DNA of 46,945 bases, taken from the NCBI GenBank assembly GCA_035703895.1, contig DASSXJ010000085.1, positions 1 through 46,945 on the forward strand, given 5' to 3'. This DNA is from a bacterium (lineage in GTDB: Bacteria; Sysuimicrobiota; Sysuimicrobiia; Sysuimicrobiales; Segetimicrobiaceae). Below are positions 1-9,603 of this stretch, one piece after another. The first letter of the stretch is position 1; each line of letters begins with the position of its first letter. Position numbers and translations under genes: made by a program. Under the pieces are notes generated by a model. That model did not search any database. It was not told the origin of the DNA and saw only the letters and a list, made by a program, of their open reading frames with translations.

Positions 1-38
1 GGTATTCGCGAGACGGGCGAGTCTCCTCCTCTTCGGAT

Positions 39-941
39 TTACCCCTGGGCCTCGTACACCGCCAGTCCAACCCGGGCGATCGCCATCTGCCCGTCGAGGT
101 CGTCGCCGAGATCCTTCCCAAACACCGAGATAACGCAGGGCCCCTGGGGCGTGGTCAGGATCCCCACGTCGTTGCTGACCCGACTCAGTGAGCCGGTCTT
201 GTGGGCGAACTCGGTCCGAGGAGGAAGCAACAGGGGCAGGCGGTTGCGGACCTGCTGGCGCCCCATGATATCGAGCATCCTCCGGCAGACCTCAGCGGGC
301 AGCGTGGCCTGGACGGTCCCGACCCCGTACGCCGCGCGGGCCACCTGCTCGAGGAGTCGGCCAATCTCCTGGGGTGTTGTCATGTTGACGCCTTCGCCAT
401 GGTACACGCGGCTGTCCGGGTCGATCTCCCTCCGCCGGAGGCGTTCGGTCGCGAGATCGCGGGTCTCGGGCCCGGGCGGCGCGCCTCCCAGCCCCACAAG
501 TTCGTAGAGCAGCCCGCGGCAGTCCAACGCGACCGTGGTGCGCTCGAGCCCGCACGCGCGCAGGCGGGCGTTCACCGCCTCCTTGGTCAGACGAGCCAGG
601 AGGATGTCGGTGGCGGTGTTGTCGCTGACGATGATCATGAGCGTGGCCAGGTCGCCCACGGTGACGGCGGTTCCCGCGGACACCTCCTTGAGCACCCCCG
701 ATCCCGGCGACCTCATCTCATCCGTGAGCGTAACGCGCTCCTCTAGGGACCTCTCCCCCGCGTGCACCCGGCTGAGGAGCTCGGCAAGGATCGGGACCTT
801 GAACACGCTCGCCATCGGGAACAGTTGATCCGCGTGCACGCTAACCCGCTCCCCGGTCCCGAGCGCGTGCACGTACACGCCCAGCGTCCCATCGAGCCTG
901 GCCGCGATGCTCCGAATGCGCCTGCCCAAGTCTCTCTTCAT
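39..941 (-). CDS. class A beta-lactamase-like serine hydrolase, leaderless
   Basis: 300 aa with the class A serine hydrolase motif order: S45-V-F-K48 (SxxK nucleophile), S106-D107-N108 (SDN) and K248-T-G250 (KTG). Family knowledge makes it a penicillin-recognising acyl-enzyme hydrolase. No signal peptide is visible; the N-terminus is basic (MKRDLGRRIR) without a hydrophobic core, so it would stay in the cytoplasm unless the start is misplaced. A canonical omega-loop ExxLN is not obvious where expected (about residues 138-150), so beta-lactam hydrolysis is uncertain. The ATG overlaps the rsmG stop as ATGA and a GGAGGAGGAG run sits just upstream, so it is translationally coupled and is the last gene of the rpmH operon visible here. 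Confidence 0.85.
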   Translation of the reverse strand: MKRDLGRRIRSIAARLDGTLGVYVHALGTGERVSVHADQLFPMASVFKVPILAELLSRVHAGERSLEERVTLTDEMRSPGSGVLKEVSAGTAVTVGDLATLMIIVSDNTATDILLARLTKEAVNARLRACGLERTTVALDCRGLLYELVGLGGAPPGPETRDLATERLRRREIDPDSRVYHGEGVNMTTPQEIGRLLEQVARAAYGVGTVQATLPAEVCRRMLDIMGRQQVRNRLPLLLPPRTEFAHKTGSLSRVSNDVGILTTPQGPCVISVFGKDLGDDLDGQMAIARVGLAVYEAQG

Positions 942-1648
942 CTCCTCCTCCTCGGTGACTCTCGCGACCCCAGAGGGCGCCTGCCCGGTACGCCGGGGCG
1001 GCGCGGGTACGCCGAGGGGGTCGGCGCGACCTTTCGCACGACGATCATCCCAAATGCGCGGGCTTCCGCAGCGCCCCCCAGCAGCCGCAGACCCGCCGCC
1101 GCGGCGCGCATCTCCGCGTCGGCGTGGGATCCCTTGGGAAACACCGCGACGCCCCCCACCCGCACCAAGGGCAGCGCGAGCTCGGCGAGCACCGGAAGCG
1201 ACGCCACTGCGCGGGCCGTCGCCGCATCGTATTGCTCGCGGTGGGCCGGCGTCCGGCCCAATGCTTCGGCCCGCGCGTGGACGACATCCGCATTGGCAAG
1301 CCCAAGGGCGCGCAGGACCACACCGAGAAACCCGGCCTTCTTGCGGGATGCTTCCACCAGCAGCACACGCACCGCCGGCCGCGCCACGGCGATCGGGACG
1401 CCGGGCGTGCCCGACCCGCTTCCCAGATCGACGACCGTCCCTCGATCCGGAAGATGCGGAAGGCAGGCCAGGGCATCGACGACGAGGACGCGGGCGGCTG
1501 CTGCTTCCGTCTGGACCCCGGTGAGATTGAGGCGATCGCGCCAGGACACCACGAGCCCAACGTAGCGCTCGAGGAGGGCATACTGGGAGGGAGTGAGATC
1601 GATGCCGAGCGCGGCGCCGGCGGACTTGAGGATCGGCCCGACGGACAC
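938..1648 (-). CDS. rsmG: 16S rRNA (guanine-527-N7)-methyltransferase RsmG (GidB)
   Basis: 236 aa Rossmann-fold SAM methyltransferase. The SAM-binding loop VVDLGSGSGTPGVPIAV (about residues 72-88) is the RsmG form of motif I, and TARAVASL in the middle matches the family RA-VA-L motif. It methylates N7 of G527 in the 530 loop of 16S rRNA. The start is GTG at 1648, 7 nt after the jag stop, with GGACGGAG between them as ribosome site. The C-terminal 25 residues are Arg/Pro-rich and poorly conserved. In many genomes mnmE and mnmG lie between jag and rsmG; both are absent here. Confidence 0.95.
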   Translation of the reverse strand: MSVGPILKSAGAALGIDLTPSQYALLERYVGLVVSWRDRLNLTGVQTEAAAARVLVVDALACLPHLPDRGTVVDLGSGSGTPGVPIAVARPAVRVLLVEASRKKAGFLGVVLRALGLANADVVHARAEALGRTPAHREQYDAATARAVASLPVLAELALPLVRVGGVAVFPKGSHADAEMRAAAAGLRLLGGAAEARAFGMIVVRKVAPTPSAYPRRPGVPGRRPLGSRESPRRRR

Positions 1649-1655
1649 CTCCGTC

Positions 1656-2438
1656 CTACGGGCGCATGTGGTTGTGCGAACGGGACCGGAATCTCCCCTG
1701 CGGGCGCCCAGACGCCCCCGCGGTGCTGGAGGATGATGCTCCGCGGGGGGTGATCACCACCCGGCGCTCCGGATCCTCGCCTTCGCTGTGTGTCGTTACA
1801 CCGCCGTCGGCCGCGAGGGTCGTGTGGATGATCCGCCGCTCGGCCGCAGACATCGGCTTCAGCGCGAGCGGGCGCCCGCTCCGCCGCACCCGCTCAGCGA
1901 ATCGGCGGGCCATATCCTCCAGCGTTTCCACCCGACGCTCCCGGTAGCGCTCGACGTCGACGATCACGGGGATCCGGCGCCCCTGACGATGCGCCACGAT
2001 CAGGTTCACCACCAAATCGAGCGCGTCCAGGGTTTGACCTCGGCGTCCAATCAGGGGGGCAAGATCGGGCCCGGTCACCGAAACGTGGATCTGCCCGGCC
2101 TCTTCCCGCCCGGAGGCGGAGGCGTGGAATCCCATCGCCTCGATCAGAGAAGTCGCGACACCCTGGGCCAGCTGAATCAGCTCCGCGGCCTCGGCTTCGG
2201 GCAGGGCCGAAGCCTGAGGAGCCGCACGCGAGGGTTCAGGAGCCCCCTCTTCTCCTTCGTCCATCTCCGAAAGGAGCGTGAGCCGGACCCGGGCCAGACG
2301 CGACCCGAGCCCGAGAACGCCGCGGCTCCCTTCATCGAGCACCATGAGATCCGCGTCTTCGCGTCGCGCCCCCAGCGTCCGAAGGGCGTCGCGTATCGCC
2401 TCCTCGACGGTCCGCCCGGAGCCTTCAGCCGATCTCAC
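1656..2438 (-). CDS. jag: Jag/KhpB RNA-binding protein (Jag_N-KH-R3H)
   Basis: 260 aa starting at GTG 2438, which overlaps the yidC stop as GTGA. The frame stays open far upstream, but that part is an out-of-frame shadow of yidC. Domains in order: Jag_N (residues 1-55, with the VEEAIRDALRTLG and GVLGLGSRLARVRL signatures), an acidic linker (56-85), a KH domain (about 88-160, GPDLAPLIGRRGQTLDALDL) and R3H (about 160-232, with RYRERR and LALKPMSAAERRIIH). The tail is Ser/Arg-rich. The family binds RNA and links cell elongation to envelope growth in Gram-positives. A good ribosome site (AAAGGAG) lies 10-12 nt upstream inside yidC. Confidence 0.93.
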   Translation of the reverse strand: MRSAEGSGRTVEEAIRDALRTLGARREDADLMVLDEGSRGVLGLGSRLARVRLTLLSEMDEGEEGAPEPSRAAPQASALPEAEAAELIQLAQGVATSLIEAMGFHASASGREEAGQIHVSVTGPDLAPLIGRRGQTLDALDLVVNLIVAHRQGRRIPVIVDVERYRERRVETLEDMARRFAERVRRSGRPLALKPMSAAERRIIHTTLAADGGVTTHSEGEDPERRVVITPRGASSSSTAGASGRPQGRFRSRSHNHMRP

Positions 2439-3244
2439 CTGCGCTTCGCTCCTTTCTTGCCCTTGGGTACCGGGGCGGGCTGAACGGAGTTCCTCGATGC
2501 GGGCTGTTTGGCATTCCCAGACGCCTGAGCCTGCGCCACGATCTGGGATTTGGGCGGAGCGGTGATCATCGGATGGGGCCGGCCAACCACCCACAGATAC
2601 TCGCCCAGGTAGGCCATCGTGGACACGATCATATAGATCGACACTCCAACCGGGTAGATGGTGGCGAACCACGCCATCATGACCGGCATGAGAATCAGCA
2701 TCCGCGCCTGCTGGGGATCCGTGATCGTCATGCGCTGCTGCAGCCACATCGTGACAAAGATGAGGACGGGAAAGATCAGGAGCAGGAGACGCTCGGGATG
2801 TCCGGTCCCTACCTCCGACATGATCTGGCTGAGATTCGGCGCTTGGTCGAGGCGCATCCACGGGATGCCGAACACGGCCGCGGTGCCGAACAACCCCTTC
2901 TTGTAGAGGAGCTGCCACAGGGCGATGAACACCGGCATCTGCACGATCATCGGGAGGCACCCCATGGCGGGGTTGACCTTGTGGGCCCTGTACAGCTGCA
3001 TGATCTCCCGGTTCAGCGTTTGCGGGTCTTCCTTGTACTTCCGCCGGAGGGCCTCCACGTGGGGCGCCACGACCTGCATGCCCTTCATGGATTTCAACTG
3101 CGTGCGGGTGAGCGGGTGGAGGACCAGCTTGACCGCGAGCGTCAGGAGCACGATCGCCAGCGTGTAGTCGTGCGCAAAACCATAGAAAAACTGCAGCGTC
3201 GCGCTCAGCGCCTGCGTGATCGGGCTGATCAACTGCTGATACAC
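2435..3244 (-). CDS. yidC: membrane protein insertase YidC (short, SpoIIIJ/OxaA type)
   Basis: 269 aa, the short Gram-positive form without the large periplasmic P1 domain. No lipobox is seen near the N-terminus. Hydrophobic segments lie near residues 22-45, 93-115, 152-172 and 185-220. The 60KD_IMP core is recognisable: HPLTRTQLKSMKGMQ, a charged loop PHVEALRRKYK, NPAMGCLPMIVQMPVFIALW, and a basic tail KGKKGAKRR typical of ribosome binding. It inserts membrane proteins alone or with SecYEG. The start is GTG 3244 with AGGGAGG 9-10 nt upstream. It lies between yidD and jag, the usual order. Confidence 0.96.
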   Translation of the reverse strand: MYQQLISPITQALSATLQFFYGFAHDYTLAIVLLTLAVKLVLHPLTRTQLKSMKGMQVVAPHVEALRRKYKEDPQTLNREIMQLYRAHKVNPAMGCLPMIVQMPVFIALWQLLYKKGLFGTAAVFGIPWMRLDQAPNLSQIMSEVGTGHPERLLLLIFPVLIFVTMWLQQRMTITDPQQARMLILMPVMMAWFATIYPVGVSIYMIVSTMAYLGEYLWVVGRPHPMITAPPKSQIVAQAQASGNAKQPASRNSVQPAPVPKGKKGAKRR

Positions 3245-3262
3245 CTACGAACCTCCCTGGGC

Positions 3263-3484
3263 CTACGGCACGGGATCGTACCCGCCCGGGTGGAACGGAT
3301 GGCACCGAAGCAGACGCCGCAGGGCCAGCCAGCTTCCCCGGAATACGCCGTATCGTGTGACCGCTTGGGCCGCATACTCCGAACATGAGGGGAAGTATCG
3401 GCAGGACGGGGAGGTGAATGGCGAGATCCACCGCTGGTACAGGCGGATCATCCCCAACCCCATCGCGTTAGCGACCCGACTCAT
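3263..3484 (-). CDS. yidD: membrane protein insertion efficiency factor YidD
   Basis: 73 aa, usual length for the family. The signature is complete: an amphipathic N-terminus ([11 protein letters not shown]), the [11 protein letters not shown] cysteine motif (about residues 28-38), [33 protein letters not shown] at the end with the characteristic CHPFHPGG element. It is a small peripheral membrane protein that assists YidC. The ATG at 3484 lies inside rnpA (17-nt overlap), as is common, so the two are probably coupled. Confidence 0.95.
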
Positions 3485-3794
3485 ACGGCGACCCCTCTAG
3501 CATCCGCCCGGCGGCGCACAGCGTCTCCATCTCCGATACGATCAACTCGAATGGGGCGGTCAACACCGGGGGGCGGGCCACCAGTACGAGATCCCCATGA
3601 TCATGAAGGCGGCTCTCCAGCCGCCTGAACGCCTCGCGCAGACGTCGCTTGGCCCGGTTCCTGGCTACGGCCCCCCCGAACCGTTTTCCGGCGGTAATGC
3701 CGACCCTCCGGCGCCCGTCAGTCGGCCGGACATACACCACCAGCGTCGTCCCGAGAAACCGGCGTCCCTCCCGGTAGACTCGCCGGAACTCGAT
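3468..3794 (-). CDS. rnpA: ribonuclease P protein component RnpA (5' end uncertain)
   Basis: The protein subunit of RNase P, which matures the 5' end of tRNA. The core motif [16 protein letters not shown] (the RNR box) is unmistakable. The first ordinary start is GTG 3740, giving 90 aa, but translation upstream in the same frame gives [18 protein letters not shown], exactly the expected first helix and strand of RnpA. Coding therefore runs at least to the ATC at 3794. The frame stays open to the rpmH stop (TAA 3834-3836) with no ATG, GTG or TTG between. ATC 3794 and ACG 3815 are possible non-canonical starts; the alternative is an indel at the run of eight C (G on the plus strand, about 3802-3809). 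The end given here marks the conserved homology, not a proven start. Confidence 0.85.
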
Positions 3795-3833
3795 AGAACC
3801 AGGGGGGGGATCCGTCCGCGCCGCTGCGCTTCC

Positions 3834-3971
3834 TTAGGATGGGGCCAAACGCTGCCGTCCCCGGGCGCGCCTACGGCGCAGGACGTTTCTACCGCCGGGG
3901 GTCCGCATTCTCGTGCGGAATCCGTGGGTCTTGCTGCGATGCCGTCGGTTTGGTTGGAATGTGCGCTTCAT
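3834..3971 (-). CDS. rpmH: 50S ribosomal protein L34
   Basis: 45 aa, standard length. It begins [19 protein letters not shown] and continues [20 protein letters not shown], a textbook L34. The ATG is at 3971 with GAGAGGGG about 8 nt upstream. The stop TAA (3834-3836) is in the same reading frame as rnpA and is followed at once by GGAAG, a likely ribosome site for rnpA. It is the first gene of the leftward operon leaving the origin. Confidence 0.97.
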
Positions 3972-4031
3972 GGGGCGCCCCTCTCAATCTCCCAGCGGCC
4001 GGCAGCGGACGGGCGGGCCGTGTGTGAGCCC

Positions 4032-4061
4032 ACTATAGCATAGGATCGTCTAACCGTTCAA
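4032..4061 (-). promoter_or_regulatory. sigma-70-type promoter of the rpmH operon
   Basis: On the minus strand TTGAAC (4056-4061) is followed after 18 nt by TATAGT (4032-4037), which is preceded by TGC, making an extended -10. It lies 60 nt upstream of the rpmH ATG and points leftward. The match is good enough to propose it as the main promoter. Confidence 0.7.
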
Positions 4062-4097
4062 CGCAGGTCACCGAAGGCCCGCGAAGACCGCGGTGGT

Positions 4098-4263
4098 TGG
4101 GGATAACCCTTGGACAACTACCAGGGTTATCCAGATTCTCTGCCGGAGAGCGACATGCCGGACGGAGGTAGTCATCCGAATCATGCGTCCGATGGGGAAC
4201 TCGTGATCGAGAAAAGAGGAGATCGTCGAGGTTGTCCACAATCTTTTCCACACCTGTGGATAA
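4098..4263. other. oriC, left part: DnaA-box cluster upstream of dnaA
   Basis: Five DnaA boxes within about 165 bp, measured against TTATCCACA: 4098-4106 (TGGGGATAA, minus, one mismatch), 4127-4135 (TTATCCAGA, one mismatch), 4232-4240 (TTGTCCACA, one mismatch), 4244-4252 (TTTTCCACA, one mismatch) and 4255-4263 (TGTGGATAA, minus, perfect). The last three are packed head to tail. This corresponds in position to the incAB side of the bipartite Bacillus origin. Genes on both sides point away from here. Confidence 0.8.
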
Positions 4264-4332
4264 CGTTCGGGAGCCGGATATTTAGGCCCTATTACCACAG
4301 TTCCCTCAGCGATCCCGAATCTACAGGGCTGA

Positions 4333-4349
4333 GAAAATCGTAGATTTTC
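4333..4349. repeat. perfect 7-bp inverted repeat with 3-nt spacer (operator-like)
   Basis: GAAAATC-GTA-GATTTTC, in an AT-richer pocket about 150 bp upstream of the GHKL/winged-helix gene. It could be an operator for that regulator or part of origin architecture. No T-run follows, so a terminator is unlikely. The function is inference. Confidence 0.45.
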
Positions 4350-4499
4350 GAGATCGCATCTCTCCACAACGATGACCGTCCAGCCGCCCGTCATGGAGAG
4401 CGAGAAAATATTGACCCCCATCGCCGGTTGTGAAGGATCCGTGAAGGATGGGACCTGCCCACATCCAATTCTGAGGCTCTGCACACGGAGACAGGGTGC

Positions 4500-5288
4500 A
4501 TGCAGGATTTCTTCCTGCGGCTGATCGCGAAATCAAGGGGAACCCAGGAGGAAGGCCTGGCCCCCGAGGTGCGTCTGGCTGTCTATGACTCGCTGCTTGC
4601 GCCGCCGCAGGTCATCTCACTTTCCGCCGAAGATTTCAACGAGCTCGTTGGGGAGCTAGCCTCCAAGACGCATAATTATGCGAGGGAACGCGGAGGGAAA
4701 ATCCCCTTTGTCGTCATCAGAGAGATCGTGGAGAATCTCATTCACGCGTACTTTCAGGACGCCGTGGTGACCATCATGGACGACGGCAACACGATCCGTA
4801 TCTCTGATCAGGGCCCGGGGATCCGGGACAAGGACCGCGCATTTCTCCCGGGATTCACGACAGCCACCCGGGAGATGCGGCAGTTTATCAAAGGGGTCGG
4901 TTCGGGCCTGCCCGTGGCGCGCGAACAACTCGCGTTCTTGGGAGGCGCGATCTCCGTCGAGGATAACCTTGAGCATGGAACGGTGGTGACGCTGAGGGTC
5001 GGTCCGGGGCCGCGGGGGGTCCCGGGGCCCTCGCTCCCCCCCACGCAGCCGGACCGGGTCCGCGACACGCGGATCACGGACCGGCAGCGCAAGGCGCTTC
5101 TGCTCATCGCGGAACTGGGATCCGCCGGTCCGTCGACGATCGCCAAAGAGCTCGGGGTGAGCATCAGCACCGCCCACCGCGAACTCGACGCCTTGGCGAA
5201 GATCCAGCTCGTGGCTTCTCGAGGGGCCGGAAAACGCACCCTGACCGAAGAAGGGATCGCCTACCTGGATACGGTGTTCAAGCCCTAG
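4500..5288 (+). CDS. soluble GHKL ATPase fused to a winged-helix DNA-binding domain
   Basis: 262 aa. Residues about 40-168 form a GHKL/HATPase_c domain: N-box REIVENL (E75, N79), G1 box DQGPGI (103-108), F-box-like LPGFTTA, G2 box GVGSGLP (132-138) and the closing strands GTVVTLRV. A Pro-rich linker (about 170-188) leads to a winged helix (about 191-258, GPSTIAKELGVSISTAHREL as recognition unit, then a wing with RGAGKRTLT). No transmembrane segment and no DHp phospho-acceptor domain are seen, so this is not an ordinary sensor kinase. It could be an ATP-responsive repressor or a SpoIIAB-like partner-binding kinase. It sits between two DnaA-box clusters and ends 16 nt before dnaA on the same strand, so co-transcription is likely. 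I cannot name a characterised homologue. Confidence 0.85.
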   Translation: MQDFFLRLIAKSRGTQEEGLAPEVRLAVYDSLLAPPQVISLSAEDFNELVGELASKTHNYARERGGKIPFVVIREIVENLIHAYFQDAVVTIMDDGNTIRISDQGPGIRDKDRAFLPGFTTATREMRQFIKGVGSGLPVAREQLAFLGGAISVEDNLEHGTVVTLRVGPGPRGVPGPSLPPTQPDRVRDTRITDRQRKALLLIAELGSAGPSTIAKELGVSISTAHRELDALAKIQLVASRGAGKRTLTEEGIAYLDTVFKP

Positions 5289-5304: not shown

Positions 5305-6675
5305 ATGGCTCCTGAGCACAGCGCGGCCGGTGAAGTCTGGCAGCAGGCCATGCCGCGCATCGAGCGCCAGCTGACCAAGCCCAGCTTCGAAGCATTTTTC
5401 AAGCATATGCGCCCGATGGCGCTCCACAAAAACGTCTTCGTCATCTCCGTCCCCAGCCTGTTCGCCAAGGAATGGCTGGAAGGACGGTACCGGCGCTTGA
5501 TCACCGAGACCCTCCAAGACATTCTCAGACACGGCGTGGATGTCGAGTTCATTGTCGCCGACAGCGAGCCCGTGTCCCCCGCCCCGACCCGACAGCCCGT
5601 CACCACCCGGGCGGGTGGCGCGGATGCGCTGATCATTACGGGACGGTACACGTTCGAGACGTTCGTCATCGGCAGCGGCAACCGGTTTGCGCACGCGGCG
5701 GCCCTGGCCGTCGCCGAGGCGCCCGCCAAAGCGTACAATCCGCTGTTCATCTACGGGGGGGTCGGATTGGGGAAGACCCACCTCCTGCAGGCGATCGGCC
5801 ATCACGTCCTCACGCACAAGCAGATGGCCAAGGTGATGTATGTCTCATCGGAAAAGTTCACCAACGATCTGATCAACTCGATTCGCGACGACAAAACCGT
5901 GGAGTTCCGGAACAAGTACCGCACCGCCGATGTGCTGCTGATCGACGACATTCAGTTTCTCGCAGGCAAGGAACGCACGCAGGAAGAGTTCTTTCATACC
6001 TTCAATGCCCTCCACGAATCCAGCCGTCAGCTGATTATCAGCAGCGACCGGCCTCCACGCGAGATCCCCACGCTTGAAGATCGCCTGCGGTCCCGCTTCG
6101 AATGGGGCCTGCTCGCGGACATTCAGGCCCCCGACTATGAGACGCGGATCGCGATTCTCCGCAAGAAAGCGGAACTCGATGCCATCGACCTCCCCGATGA
6201 GGTGGCGCAGTACATCGCCGAACGGATCTCCTCAAACATCCGCGAACTCGAAGGGGCGCTCAGCCGCCTCCGTGCACATGGACAGATGTCCCGAGCCCCA
6301 CTCTCGGTCGATCTTGCCGCCGATGTGCTCCGTGAAATTCTCCCGCAAACACGTGTTCGTCCCATCACCATCCCGACCATCCAACGCGCGGTCGCGGAGT
6401 TCTTTGGCATCCGGGTCGAGGAGATGAAAGCCAAACGGCGGACCAAGGGTGTCGCCTTCCCCCGTCAGGTCGCCATGTACCTCTCGCGAGAGTTAACCGA
6501 CGCTTCCCTGCCCCGAATCGGCGAAGAGTTCGGAGGACGGGATCACACCACCGTGATGCATGCCTGTGACCGTGTGAAAGCCGCGGTGATTCAAGATATC
6601 CATCTTGCCGCAGGGATCAAGAGCCTTGTGGACAACTTTCGGACGGAGCGCCCAGGCGGGGTGGACAAGGTATAG
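5305..6675 (+). CDS. dnaA: chromosomal replication initiator DnaA
   Basis: 456 aa with all four domains. Domain I is residues 1-80; domain II is a short Pro/Thr-rich linker (about 88-108). Domain III is the AAA+ ATPase, with Walker A GGVGLGKTH (151-159), Walker B LLIDDIQFL (211-219) and box VII LEDRLRSRFEWGL (258-270). Domain IV is the helix-turn-helix, with GGRDHTTVMHA (410-420). DnaA-ATP binds the boxes flanking this gene and opens the origin. The ATG at 5305 has GGAGG 6 nt upstream. A DnaA box inside its 3' end (6627-6635) allows autoregulation by the downstream cluster. Confidence 0.98.
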   Translation: MAPEHSAAGEVWQQAMPRIERQLTKPSFEAFFKHMRPMALHKNVFVISVPSLFAKEWLEGRYRRLITETLQDILRHGVDVEFIVADSEPVSPAPTRQPVTTRAGGADALIITGRYTFETFVIGSGNRFAHAAALAVAEAPAKAYNPLFIYGGVGLGKTHLLQAIGHHVLTHKQMAKVMYVSSEKFTNDLINSIRDDKTVEFRNKYRTADVLLIDDIQFLAGKERTQEEFFHTFNALHESSRQLIISSDRPPREIPTLEDRLRSRFEWGLLADIQAPDYETRIAILRKKAELDAIDLPDEVAQYIAERISSNIRELEGALSRLRAHGQMSRAPLSVDLAADVLREILPQTRVRPITIPTIQRAVAEFFGIRVEEMKAKRRTKGVAFPRQVAMYLSRELTDASLPRIGEEFGGRDHTTVMHACDRVKAAVIQDIHLAAGIKSLVDNFRTERPGGVDKV

Positions 6676-6850
6676 TTTTAACCTTCCTGAGCGATAGTGT
6701 GGTTCTACCCATAGTAGATCAGGGATAACCACCTAAGGGCATCAAGAGGTTGTCCACAGGGCAAAATCCGTGCTGATCCTCGTGCGGACGTGGATATGCA
6801 CATAATCCACAGGTTCTACTACGGGTACGACGAATCTTTATTAATAAAAT
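6627..6850. other. oriC, right part: DnaA boxes, trio-like repeats and AT-rich unwinding element
   Basis: Boxes with one mismatch to TTATCCACA: 6627-6635 (TGTGGACAA, minus, in the end of dnaA), 6750-6758 (TTGTCCACA) and 6803-6811 (TAATCCACA). Directly after the last box come two CTA triplets (6816-6821), a short GC-containing spacer, then an AT tract at 6833-6850 (AATCTTTATTAATAAAAT). The order box, trios, AT tract resembles the basal unwinding system described for the Bacillus origin between dnaA and dnaN. This is the best site for strand opening in the window. Confidence 0.75.
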
Positions 6851-8215: not shown

Positions 8216-9302
8216 GCTCCGGCTGCGCGATTTCCGAAACTACGCGGTGACGGATCTGACGTTCGGTCCCGGGGTCGCCTTCCTCGTTGGCTCGAACGCG
8301 CAGGGCAAGAGCAATCTCCTCGAAGCGATCTACACGGTGGCGTTGGGCCGAAGCCCGAGGGTTGGCCGTGACGTGGAAGTGATCCGGTTTGGCCAGGATC
8401 GCGCGTACGTCCGCGCCGGCGTGCAGGGGACCAGGGGGCAGACGATCGAGGTCGCGTTTGATCGGGCGAGCGGAGCGCGGCGCGTCAAGGTGAACGGGGT
8501 CTCGGCAACGCGCGGCCAGTTGCTGGGCCGGTGCGCTGTCGTCCTCGCGGGGTCGTTGGATGACGAGATGATTCGGGGGGCGCCCACCCACCGGCGGCGG
8601 GTCATGGATGCCGCGCTGGCGCAGGTCAGCCCGTCCTACTTTTTCGCGCTGACCCGGTATGCACGGGTGCTCCGGCAGCGGAACCAGTTGTTGCGGGCGT
8701 CGGCGGGCGCCGCGATTCTGGCGCCCTGGGATGATCAGTTGGTGGAGTTGGGGGCGATGCTGATCGGCCGGCGGCGGGCGTTCGTCGGCCGGCTCGCCGC
8801 ATGGGCGGCCGACCGTCACGCCCGATTGGGGGGCGGGGACGAGCGCCTCGAGATCTCGTATATCTGTGCGGTCGGCGACGACGAGGAGCGCGAGGCGTTG
8901 CGGCGCGCGCTGGAGGCCGGCCGAGCCGAGGATCTCCGGCGCGGAGTGACCCAGGCCGGTCCGCACCGGGATGACCTTCAGTTCACGATCAACGGGGTCG
9001 ACGTGCGAATGTTTGGCTCTCGGGGGCAGCACCACACCGTGGCGCTGAGCCTGCGGCTCGCCGAGGTGGACCTGCTGCGGGAAGAGTTGGGTGAGTGGCC
9101 CGTGGTGCTGCTCGACGACGTCATGGCACACCTCGACGCCTCGAGGCAGGCTCTGTTGCTTCGGGAAGTCGACGGCCCGCAGGTGTTGCTGACCCATACC
9201 GAGATTCCTTCGTGTGCGGATATCCCCATGCGTGTGCTGCGCGTCCGGTCCGGCGCCATCGCGGAGGACTCGAGTGTTTCGGCTCGGGGATCTGCTCTCT
9301 GA
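8202..9302 (+). CDS. recF: DNA repair and replication protein RecF
   Basis: 366 aa from TTG 8202 (LWLAELRLRDFRNYAVTDL), placed 7 nt after GGGAG (8190-8194); the frame is open further up but the homology is not. Walker A is GSNAQGKSN (about residues 31-39), the SMC-like signature region contains DDLQFTINGVDVRMFGSRGQ, and Walker B is VVLLDDVMAHLD near residue 305. It loads RecA at gaps through RecFOR. Its 3' end overlaps dciA by 29 nt. Confidence 0.96.
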   Translation: MWLAELRLRDFRNYAVTDLTFGPGVAFLVGSNAQGKSNLLEAIYTVALGRSPRVGRDVEVIRFGQDRAYVRAGVQGTRGQTIEVAFDRASGARRVKVNGVSATRGQLLGRCAVVLAGSLDDEMIRGAPTHRRRVMDAALAQVSPSYFFALTRYARVLRQRNQLLRASAGAAILAPWDDQLVELGAMLIGRRRAFVGRLAAWAADRHARLGGGDERLEISYICAVGDDEEREALRRALEAGRAEDLRRGVTQAGPHRDDLQFTINGVDVRMFGSRGQHHTVALSLRLAEVDLLREELGEWPVVLLDDVMAHLDASRQALLLREVDGPQVLLTHTEIPSCADIPMRVLRVRSGAIAEDSSVSARGSAL

Positions 9303-9603
9303 CGCCCTCCGATCGCTGGTGGGGCCTCGTCGGGCTTGGCAGGCGGGGGTCCTCGACGCGTGGCCCGAGGTCGTCGGCGAGCTGCATGCCCGTCATACGA
9401 GAGCGGCCGGCATCCGCGGGAACGCGCTGGTGGTGACGACGGATCTCCCCGCGCTGTCGTATGAACTCCGGCTGCGTCGGGATGCGCTGGTCGTAGCCCT
9501 CAACCGGAAAGTGGGGGGAGCGGCGATCCAGGATATCCAGGTCGTGATACGGCCGTCGGGGGAGTCCGACGCGGCGGATTCGACGGCCACGAGCGGCGGG
9601 TGA
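9274..9603 (+). CDS. dciA: DciA-like replicative helicase loader (DUF721)
   Basis: 109 aa from GTG 9274, which follows GGAGG by 6 nt inside the end of recF. The DUF721 core is visible: LGDLLSDALRSLVG, then WQAGVLDAWPEVVGE with the conserved W..VVG, HTRAAGIRGNALVVTTDLPALSYELR, and a final IQDIQVVIR strand. The family is the ancestral DnaB helicase loader, fitting its place in the dnaA-gyrA block. The C-terminal 15 residues are low-complexity. Confidence 0.87.
   Translation: MFRLGDLLSDALRSLVGPRRAWQAGVLDAWPEVVGELHARHTRAAGIRGNALVVTTDLPALSYELRLRRDALVVALNRKVGGAAIQDIQVVIRPSGESDAADSTATSGG

Follow-up and report, generated by a model that had tools for sequence, protein, structure and literature searches.

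What does a protein that joins a GHKL ATPase domain to a winged helix do when its gene lies at the replication origin, directly before dnaA? The question is raised by a gene, here called X, in a genome of Sysuimicrobiota, the phylum of CSP1-3 (PMC11604079). The gene is part of the window, by which we mean the whole stretch of DNA that was analysed (46,945 nucleotides). A first-pass annotation had proposed that an ATP-sensing DNA-binding protein at this place could couple energy state to dnaA expression or to origin firing.

Organization of the oriC-dnaA locus

The order in the window is rpmH, DnaA boxes, X, dnaA, DnaA-box-like sites and dnaN, with the following features:

3834..3971, minus strand: rpmH, divergent, the left boundary of oriC
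4098..4263: oriC cluster of DnaA boxes upstream of X (4098-, 4127+, 4232+, 4244+, 4255-), strongly conserved in the family alignment
4404..4437, plus strand: dyad GAAAA-N25-AGGA on the 5' side of X, its distance to X almost constant in Sysuimicrobiota
4500..5288, plus strand: gene X, ATG start, 262 amino acids, first gene of the oriC-dnaA unit
5305..6675, plus strand: dnaA, directly 3' of X after a gap of 16 nt
6627..6811: DnaA-box-like sites from a box scan (6627-, 6750+, 6803+), at the end of dnaA and in the dnaA-dnaN gap

DnaA boxes with at most one mismatch occur 11 times in the window against 2.3 expected, and the cumulative GC skew has its minimum at about 5-8 kb, as an origin should show. 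The stop of X at 5288 and the start of dnaA at 5305 bear out the 16 nt spacing given in the first-pass annotation. The two DnaA-box clusters between which X had been placed are also present (4098-4263 and 6627-6811), but they enclose X together with dnaA, not X alone. Across the loci studied the gap between the two genes usually falls between -4 and about 100 nt, and because it is short and a promoter-like element precedes X, co-transcription of X and dnaA is likely. This element, the dyad GAAAA-N25-AGGA, is a post-hoc pattern, framed after looking, and is found at the conserved position in 19 of 34 Sysuimicrobiota compared to 0.4 expected in shuffles. It may serve the X-dnaA unit as a promoter or other regulatory element, perhaps one of an unusual promoter class.

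Several other features of the window were observed. A block at 4358-4400, downstream of the main DnaA boxes, contains TCTCTCCACAA, TGACCG and CGTCAGCGGCA and is conserved within the taxonomic family of the window genome; it opens with a diverged DnaA box, and another part reads TGAC..GTCA. On the minus strand, an open reading frame at 39-941 resembles a class A beta-lactamase-type serine hydrolase and adjoins rsmG (938-1648), a gene beside which parA and parB often stand. Between recF and gyrB, a DUF721/DciA-like gene (9214-9603, plus strand) was recognised by position and sequence and is the expected candidate for the helicase operator of this lineage.

Domain composition of the X protein

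The following parts of X, all encoded on the plus strand, were delineated from domain searches, the alignment of relatives and a structural model:

4503..4538: N-terminal amphipathic helix, residues 2-13, a helix predicted with low confidence and assessed by hydrophobic-moment comparison
4563..4628: beta hairpin, residues about 22-43, PEVRLAVYDSLLAPPQVISLSA, conserved and family-specific according to the relatives' alignment and the model
4713..5000: Bergerat/GHKL ATPase domain, residues 72-167, matched by Pfam HATPase_c above the curated cut-off (E = 1.4e-12)
5001..5072: Pro-rich variable linker, residues 168-191, of low model confidence at 173-180 and differing in length between relatives
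5073..5279: C-terminal winged helix, about residues 192-260, from Pfam matches below cut-off and the model

Residues between the N-terminal helix and about position 22 form a variable linker. The hairpin that follows is well conserved (R25 in 202/219, A27 in 213/219, Y29 in 209/219 and P36 in 212/219 proteins). In the AlphaFold2 model, for which 41 aligned relatives of X served as input, the mean pLDDT is 82.9, the winged helix scores mostly 90-98 and the linker before it is disordered. The winged helix, found in all aligned members, is matched by MarR, IclR and HVO_A0261_N below the Pfam cut-offs (for MarR, 23.2 bits against 24.6), and Pfam DIP2311-like_C also touches it below cut-off. No Pfam models other than HATPase_c and HTH match X and its 41 relatives. 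X reaches none of the curated NCBIfam families, and searches of PHROGs and PADLOC gave only weak matches at the domain level. The set of parts described initially, namely GHKL boxes at N79, DQGPG (103-107) and GVGSG (132-136), a linker and a winged helix, is supported. The accompanying statement that X lacks a membrane domain is right as far as transmembrane segments go, none of which are present, but must be qualified for the amphipathic N-terminus, which is of a membrane-targeting-like type in Bacillota members.

ATP site and probable class of ATPase

The ATP-binding boxes of X, with residue counts drawn from an alignment of 228 proteins, are the following (all on the plus strand):

4722..4736: N box, E75-I-V-E-N79, with a catalytic-type Glu (E75, 225/226) and a Mg-binding Asn (N79, 226/226)
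4806..4820: G1 box, D103-Q-G-P-G107 (D103, G105 and G107 each 226/226)
4893..4907: G2 box, G132-V-G-S-G136, followed by L-P (G132 and G136 227/227, G134 226/227)

H82 (226/226) and G149 (227/227) are also invariant, and nearly every X protein retains an intact ATP site. In GyrB, MutL, Hsp90, SpoIIAB and PDK the general base is a Glu that precedes the N-box Asn by four residues; histidine kinases depend on an acceptor His instead of this GHL-type residue. X has the Glu at this position. A profile comparison of X with the GyrB encoded in the window pairs E75 with the E of EVVDN and N79 with its N; the comparison as a whole scores low (hhalign probability 3%), and the register of the motif is clear. 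The transducer (S5-like) domain is absent from behind the Bergerat domain of X, where the disordered linker and the winged helix are found, and no DHp/HisKA domain with a phospho-acceptor His was detected by Pfam in X or its 41 relatives, consistent with the earlier statement that X has no phospho-acceptor domain. Judged from these sequence features, X is probably an active GHL-type ATPase, or a kinase similar to SpoIIAB and PDK, rather than an orphan histidine kinase. The invariance of E75 indicates more than a passive ATP sensor, pointing to an enzyme that hydrolyses ATP or phosphorylates.

Distribution of X

When 84,980 species genomes were scanned, 359 relatives were found, the best 80 of which belong to CSP1-3, UBP13, deep Actinomycetota and Bacillota (phylum names here are those of the database records or our reading of these records). 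Contigs found by homology to X include metagenome-assembled genomes named ANGP1 and CSP1-3. X is present in all 28 near-complete genomes of Sysuimicrobiota, in 3/3 genomes of the UBP13 phylum and in 15/17 genomes of one class of Bacillota; in broader samples it was found in 37 of 349 Bacillota and 120 of 297 Actinomycetota, and in a Thermoleophilia class 54 of 119 have it. Members have E-values below about 1e-25 and other GHKL proteins of the same genomes are above about 1e-12; since the two are so far apart, the family is sharply bounded. The window genome has a single copy, as do other carriers. We also considered a mobile origin of X and rejected it; collections of plasmids, phages and viral contigs contain no match.

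Many relatives in the Thermoleophilia class lack X and have an otherwise normal oriC-dnaA region, so X is dispensable there and hence not universally essential.

Linkage of X to dnaA

Whether homologues always stand next to dnaA was analyzed at 265 X loci, which hold 228 different C-terminal sequences and come from Sysuimicrobiota/CSP1-3, UBP13, Actinomycetota and Bacillota. In 255 of them dnaA lies immediately downstream on the same strand. The other ten comprise three contigs that stop within X or shortly past it (L054, L198 and L270), one overlapping open frame that is linked to dnaA (L095), and six closed chromosomes on which X is the last gene and dnaA is at or near base 1 (L167, L169, L171, L172, L173, and L272, where the dnaA frame opens at base 124). 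No copy of X away from dnaA was found among the 265 loci of these four phyla, so the scattering of homologues that the first-pass annotation named as a refutation was not observed.

Of 158 loci in which rpmH was found, 153 have it divergent and upstream of X. In other loci with several kb of upstream sequence, mostly from Thermoleophilia, rpmH and yidC are gone and X is still with dnaA; the X-dnaA linkage outlasts the left arm (rpmH, rnpA, yidC) where this arm has moved. Conversely, in 20 genomes of the Thermoleophilia class that lack X, rpmH is mostly about 340 nt before the DnaA match, and a wide profile detected no remnant of X. On both counts X behaves as a clean cassette, with dnaA/oriC rather than rpmH as its partner.

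By eye, the left side of oriC in two Thermoleophilia-type loci (L064 and L082, positions 1-4500) is now occupied by ThiT-, thiamine pyrophosphokinase-, MoeA- and sortase-like genes, and in L060 Ddl-like and aminotransferase-like genes replace those of the left arm.

An apparent fusion of X to DnaA in three Thermoleophilia loci was discarded: the tblastn matches ran past the stop codon, and the translation has a stop in each. Tree distances showed no coevolution of X with DnaA in excess of that with DnaN (r 0.48 vs 0.67). Four loci that are probably from Coriobacteriia (L161, L162, L165 and L176) have DnaA proteins whose matches to that of the window score much lower (E about 1e-50 to 1e-64), owing to extra stretches or divergence, than those of most other X carriers (E below 1e-120).

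Potential DNA target

The recognition helix of the window protein reads S-x-S-T-A-H-R-E-L and its wing GKRTL. Across phyla, the pattern [SA]-T-A-[YFH]-R-[DE]-L in the helix and GKR.L in the wing is conserved, with R227 present in 214/224, T224 in 205/224 and R246 in 209/223 proteins. Because both elements are conserved across phyla, they suggest that X members have a common DNA target.

Searches of 163 regions upstream of X, trimmed and with DnaA boxes masked, returned weak motifs and no shared palindrome or operator within or across phyla. The same search without masking recovered the DnaA box, with a log-likelihood of 970 vs 91 in shuffles, and this is the only strong shared motif near X. 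The inverted repeat at 4333-4349, offered in the first-pass annotation as a binding site to be tested, is indeed present in the window, but 11 relatives from the same taxonomic family do not preserve it, so its role as an operator is unsupported. Another palindrome, TGAAAAG-NN-CTTTTCA, scored far above shuffles, yet it corresponds to the first codons of the divergent rpmH and was rejected. The target of X may lie outside the region searched, be loosely specific, or be the DnaA boxes themselves.

Relation to known systems

Several known proteins resemble parts of X. GHL ATPases (GyrB, MutL, Hsp90 and TopoVI-B) have in common with it the E-x-x-x-N box with catalytic Glu and the DxGxG and GxGxG boxes, and NCBIfam gives a weak MutL match; however, X has none of their transducer, topoisomerase, nuclease or chaperone parts. 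The best Foldseek match over both domains is DIP2311 (PDB 3lmm; E 1.6e-07, 278 columns, 15% identity, TM-score 0.46), in which a GHKL-like domain is likewise followed by a C-terminal winged helix. DIP2311 carries an extra N-terminal domain, AlbA_2 (Schlafen-type). X and its 41 relatives have no match to AlbA_2 and just about 70 residues ahead of the GHKL domain, and lacking that domain X falls outside the DIP2311 family, whose AlbA_2 - HATPase_c_4 - winged helix arrangement is, to our knowledge, not tied to dnaA.

Among regulators, YabA, SirA, Soj, Hda, DiaA/HobA, SeqA and Noc would act at or near the step proposed for X. Noc is nearest in design, with a membrane helix, a nucleotide switch and a DNA-binding domain. 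We know of no DnaA or oriC regulator that contains a GHKL domain or whose gene immediately precedes dnaA, and none of the curated models of known DnaA/oriC regulators in Pfam and NCBIfam matches X. Neither Pfam, NCBIfam, PADLOC nor PDB contains a GHKL-winged-helix protein obligately paired with dnaA, and targeted full-text searches of the open-licence literature found no published description of X. The initial impression that no system of this design has been described is therefore upheld, no function being assigned in the libraries and literature searched. The domains are known; as judged from sequence comparison, obligate pairing of a GHKL-winged-helix protein with dnaA would be a new system.

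Proposed role of X

We propose, with a probability of roughly 0.6, that X is a DNA-binding protein switched by ATP, probably a dimer, whose dedicated partner is DnaA or oriC. In favour of this reading are the strict linkage to dnaA, the near-invariant catalytic residues, the predicted fold, the recognition helix and wing kept across phyla, and the likely co-transcription with dnaA. As a soluble GHL-type protein it would bind ATP and probably hydrolyse it, and the nucleotide would change its conformation, most likely by dimerisation. The winged helix would contact DNA, most plausibly within oriC or the control region of dnaA. X, whose gene shares a unit with dnaA, would most likely modulate initiation, with either sign of effect, altering the assembly or action of DnaA at the adjacent boxes or adjusting expression of the X-dnaA unit. 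A more specific version, for which we would offer somewhat less than even odds, makes X the first GHKL-type regulator of initiation to become known, a switch that hydrolyses ATP, binds DNA and licenses or restrains origin firing. Energy sensing by X, as first proposed, is a guess. Three observations count against a DnaA/oriC partner: no operator was found, X shows no special coevolution with DnaA, and relatives dispense with it.

The last of these, together with the lack of a regulator-target motif in the 163 upstream regions, would also be expected if X were an ordinary regulator or ATPase unrelated to initiation and kept at dnaA by slow change of gene order at the origin, where rpmH-dnaA-dnaN-gyrB is itself an ancient order. 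Against this stand the count of 0/265 unlinked copies over four phyla and the survival of the dnaA linkage where that to rpmH and yidC is lost, and we regard such a bystander as improbable. Nearly on a par, and likewise unlikely, is a Ser/Thr kinase or anti-factor similar to SpoIIAB/RsbW or PDK, with DnaA or another replication protein as its partner and a winged helix that serves protein contact or localisation at oriC. SpoIIAB/RsbW and PDK/BCKDK are, like X, built on a small Bergerat domain whose catalytic Glu stands four residues before the N-box Asn, and in a PDB profile search BCKDK was the best match of X, the alignment showing FTTA and GxGxGLP boxes in common. Yet these proteins have no winged helix, and that of X is conserved like a DNA reader. 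KinB, CheA and SpoIIAB ranked lower in the search (SpoIIAB E 0.004), and the anti-sigma F model of NCBIfam (TIGR01925) gives 24.0 bits where its cut-off is 135. In the window, none of the genes beside X encodes a STAS, PP2C or sigma-factor protein, and among the neighbours annotated in the loci examined, which are rpmH, yidC, dnaA, dnaN or other unrelated upstream genes, there is no anti-anti-sigma or sigma gene.

A Noc-like tether, with the N-terminal helix on the membrane, the ATPase as switch and the winged helix holding or positioning oriC, is more improbable still. It would fit the Bacillota proteins (n=28), 96% of which open with a basic amphipathic helix (D > 0.68); these starts (L116-L145) are MinD-like, of the membrane-targeting type, for example MSWFKRLFGG and MASFLLRLFGKGK. 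The signal is far weaker in Sysuimicrobiota (43%) and in Actinomycetota (22%), the latter resembling DnaN (23%; DnaA 11%), Coriobacteriia-type proteins keep just a short MK[ST]F[FY] start, and the start codons of X were assigned by rule. On sequence grounds, the N-terminal helix offers a lead to contact with a membrane or a protein and is not a trait of the family as a whole. A degenerate or orphan histidine kinase, which the HATPase_c domain and many weak histidine-kinase matches in NCBIfam might bring to mind, is already contradicted and has hardly any probability left: X has no DHp/HisKA domain, sensor or response regulator, its GHL-typical E75 is practically invariant, and aligned members have the winged helix.

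Possible significance for initiation control

What is understood of bacterial initiation control comes largely from work on E. coli, B. subtilis and Caulobacter, and Hda, SeqA, YabA, SirA, Soj and CtrA are lineage-restricted regulators. If X, read as a protein dedicated to DnaA or oriC, is an initiation controller, it would be a widely used and unrecognised one, serving CSP1-3, UBP13 and lineages of Actinomycetota and Bacillota, and in at least four phyla it would supply a further nucleotide switch next to the AAA+ switch that DnaA itself carries. The presence and absence of X within one class provide natural deletion strains, which make the idea directly testable.
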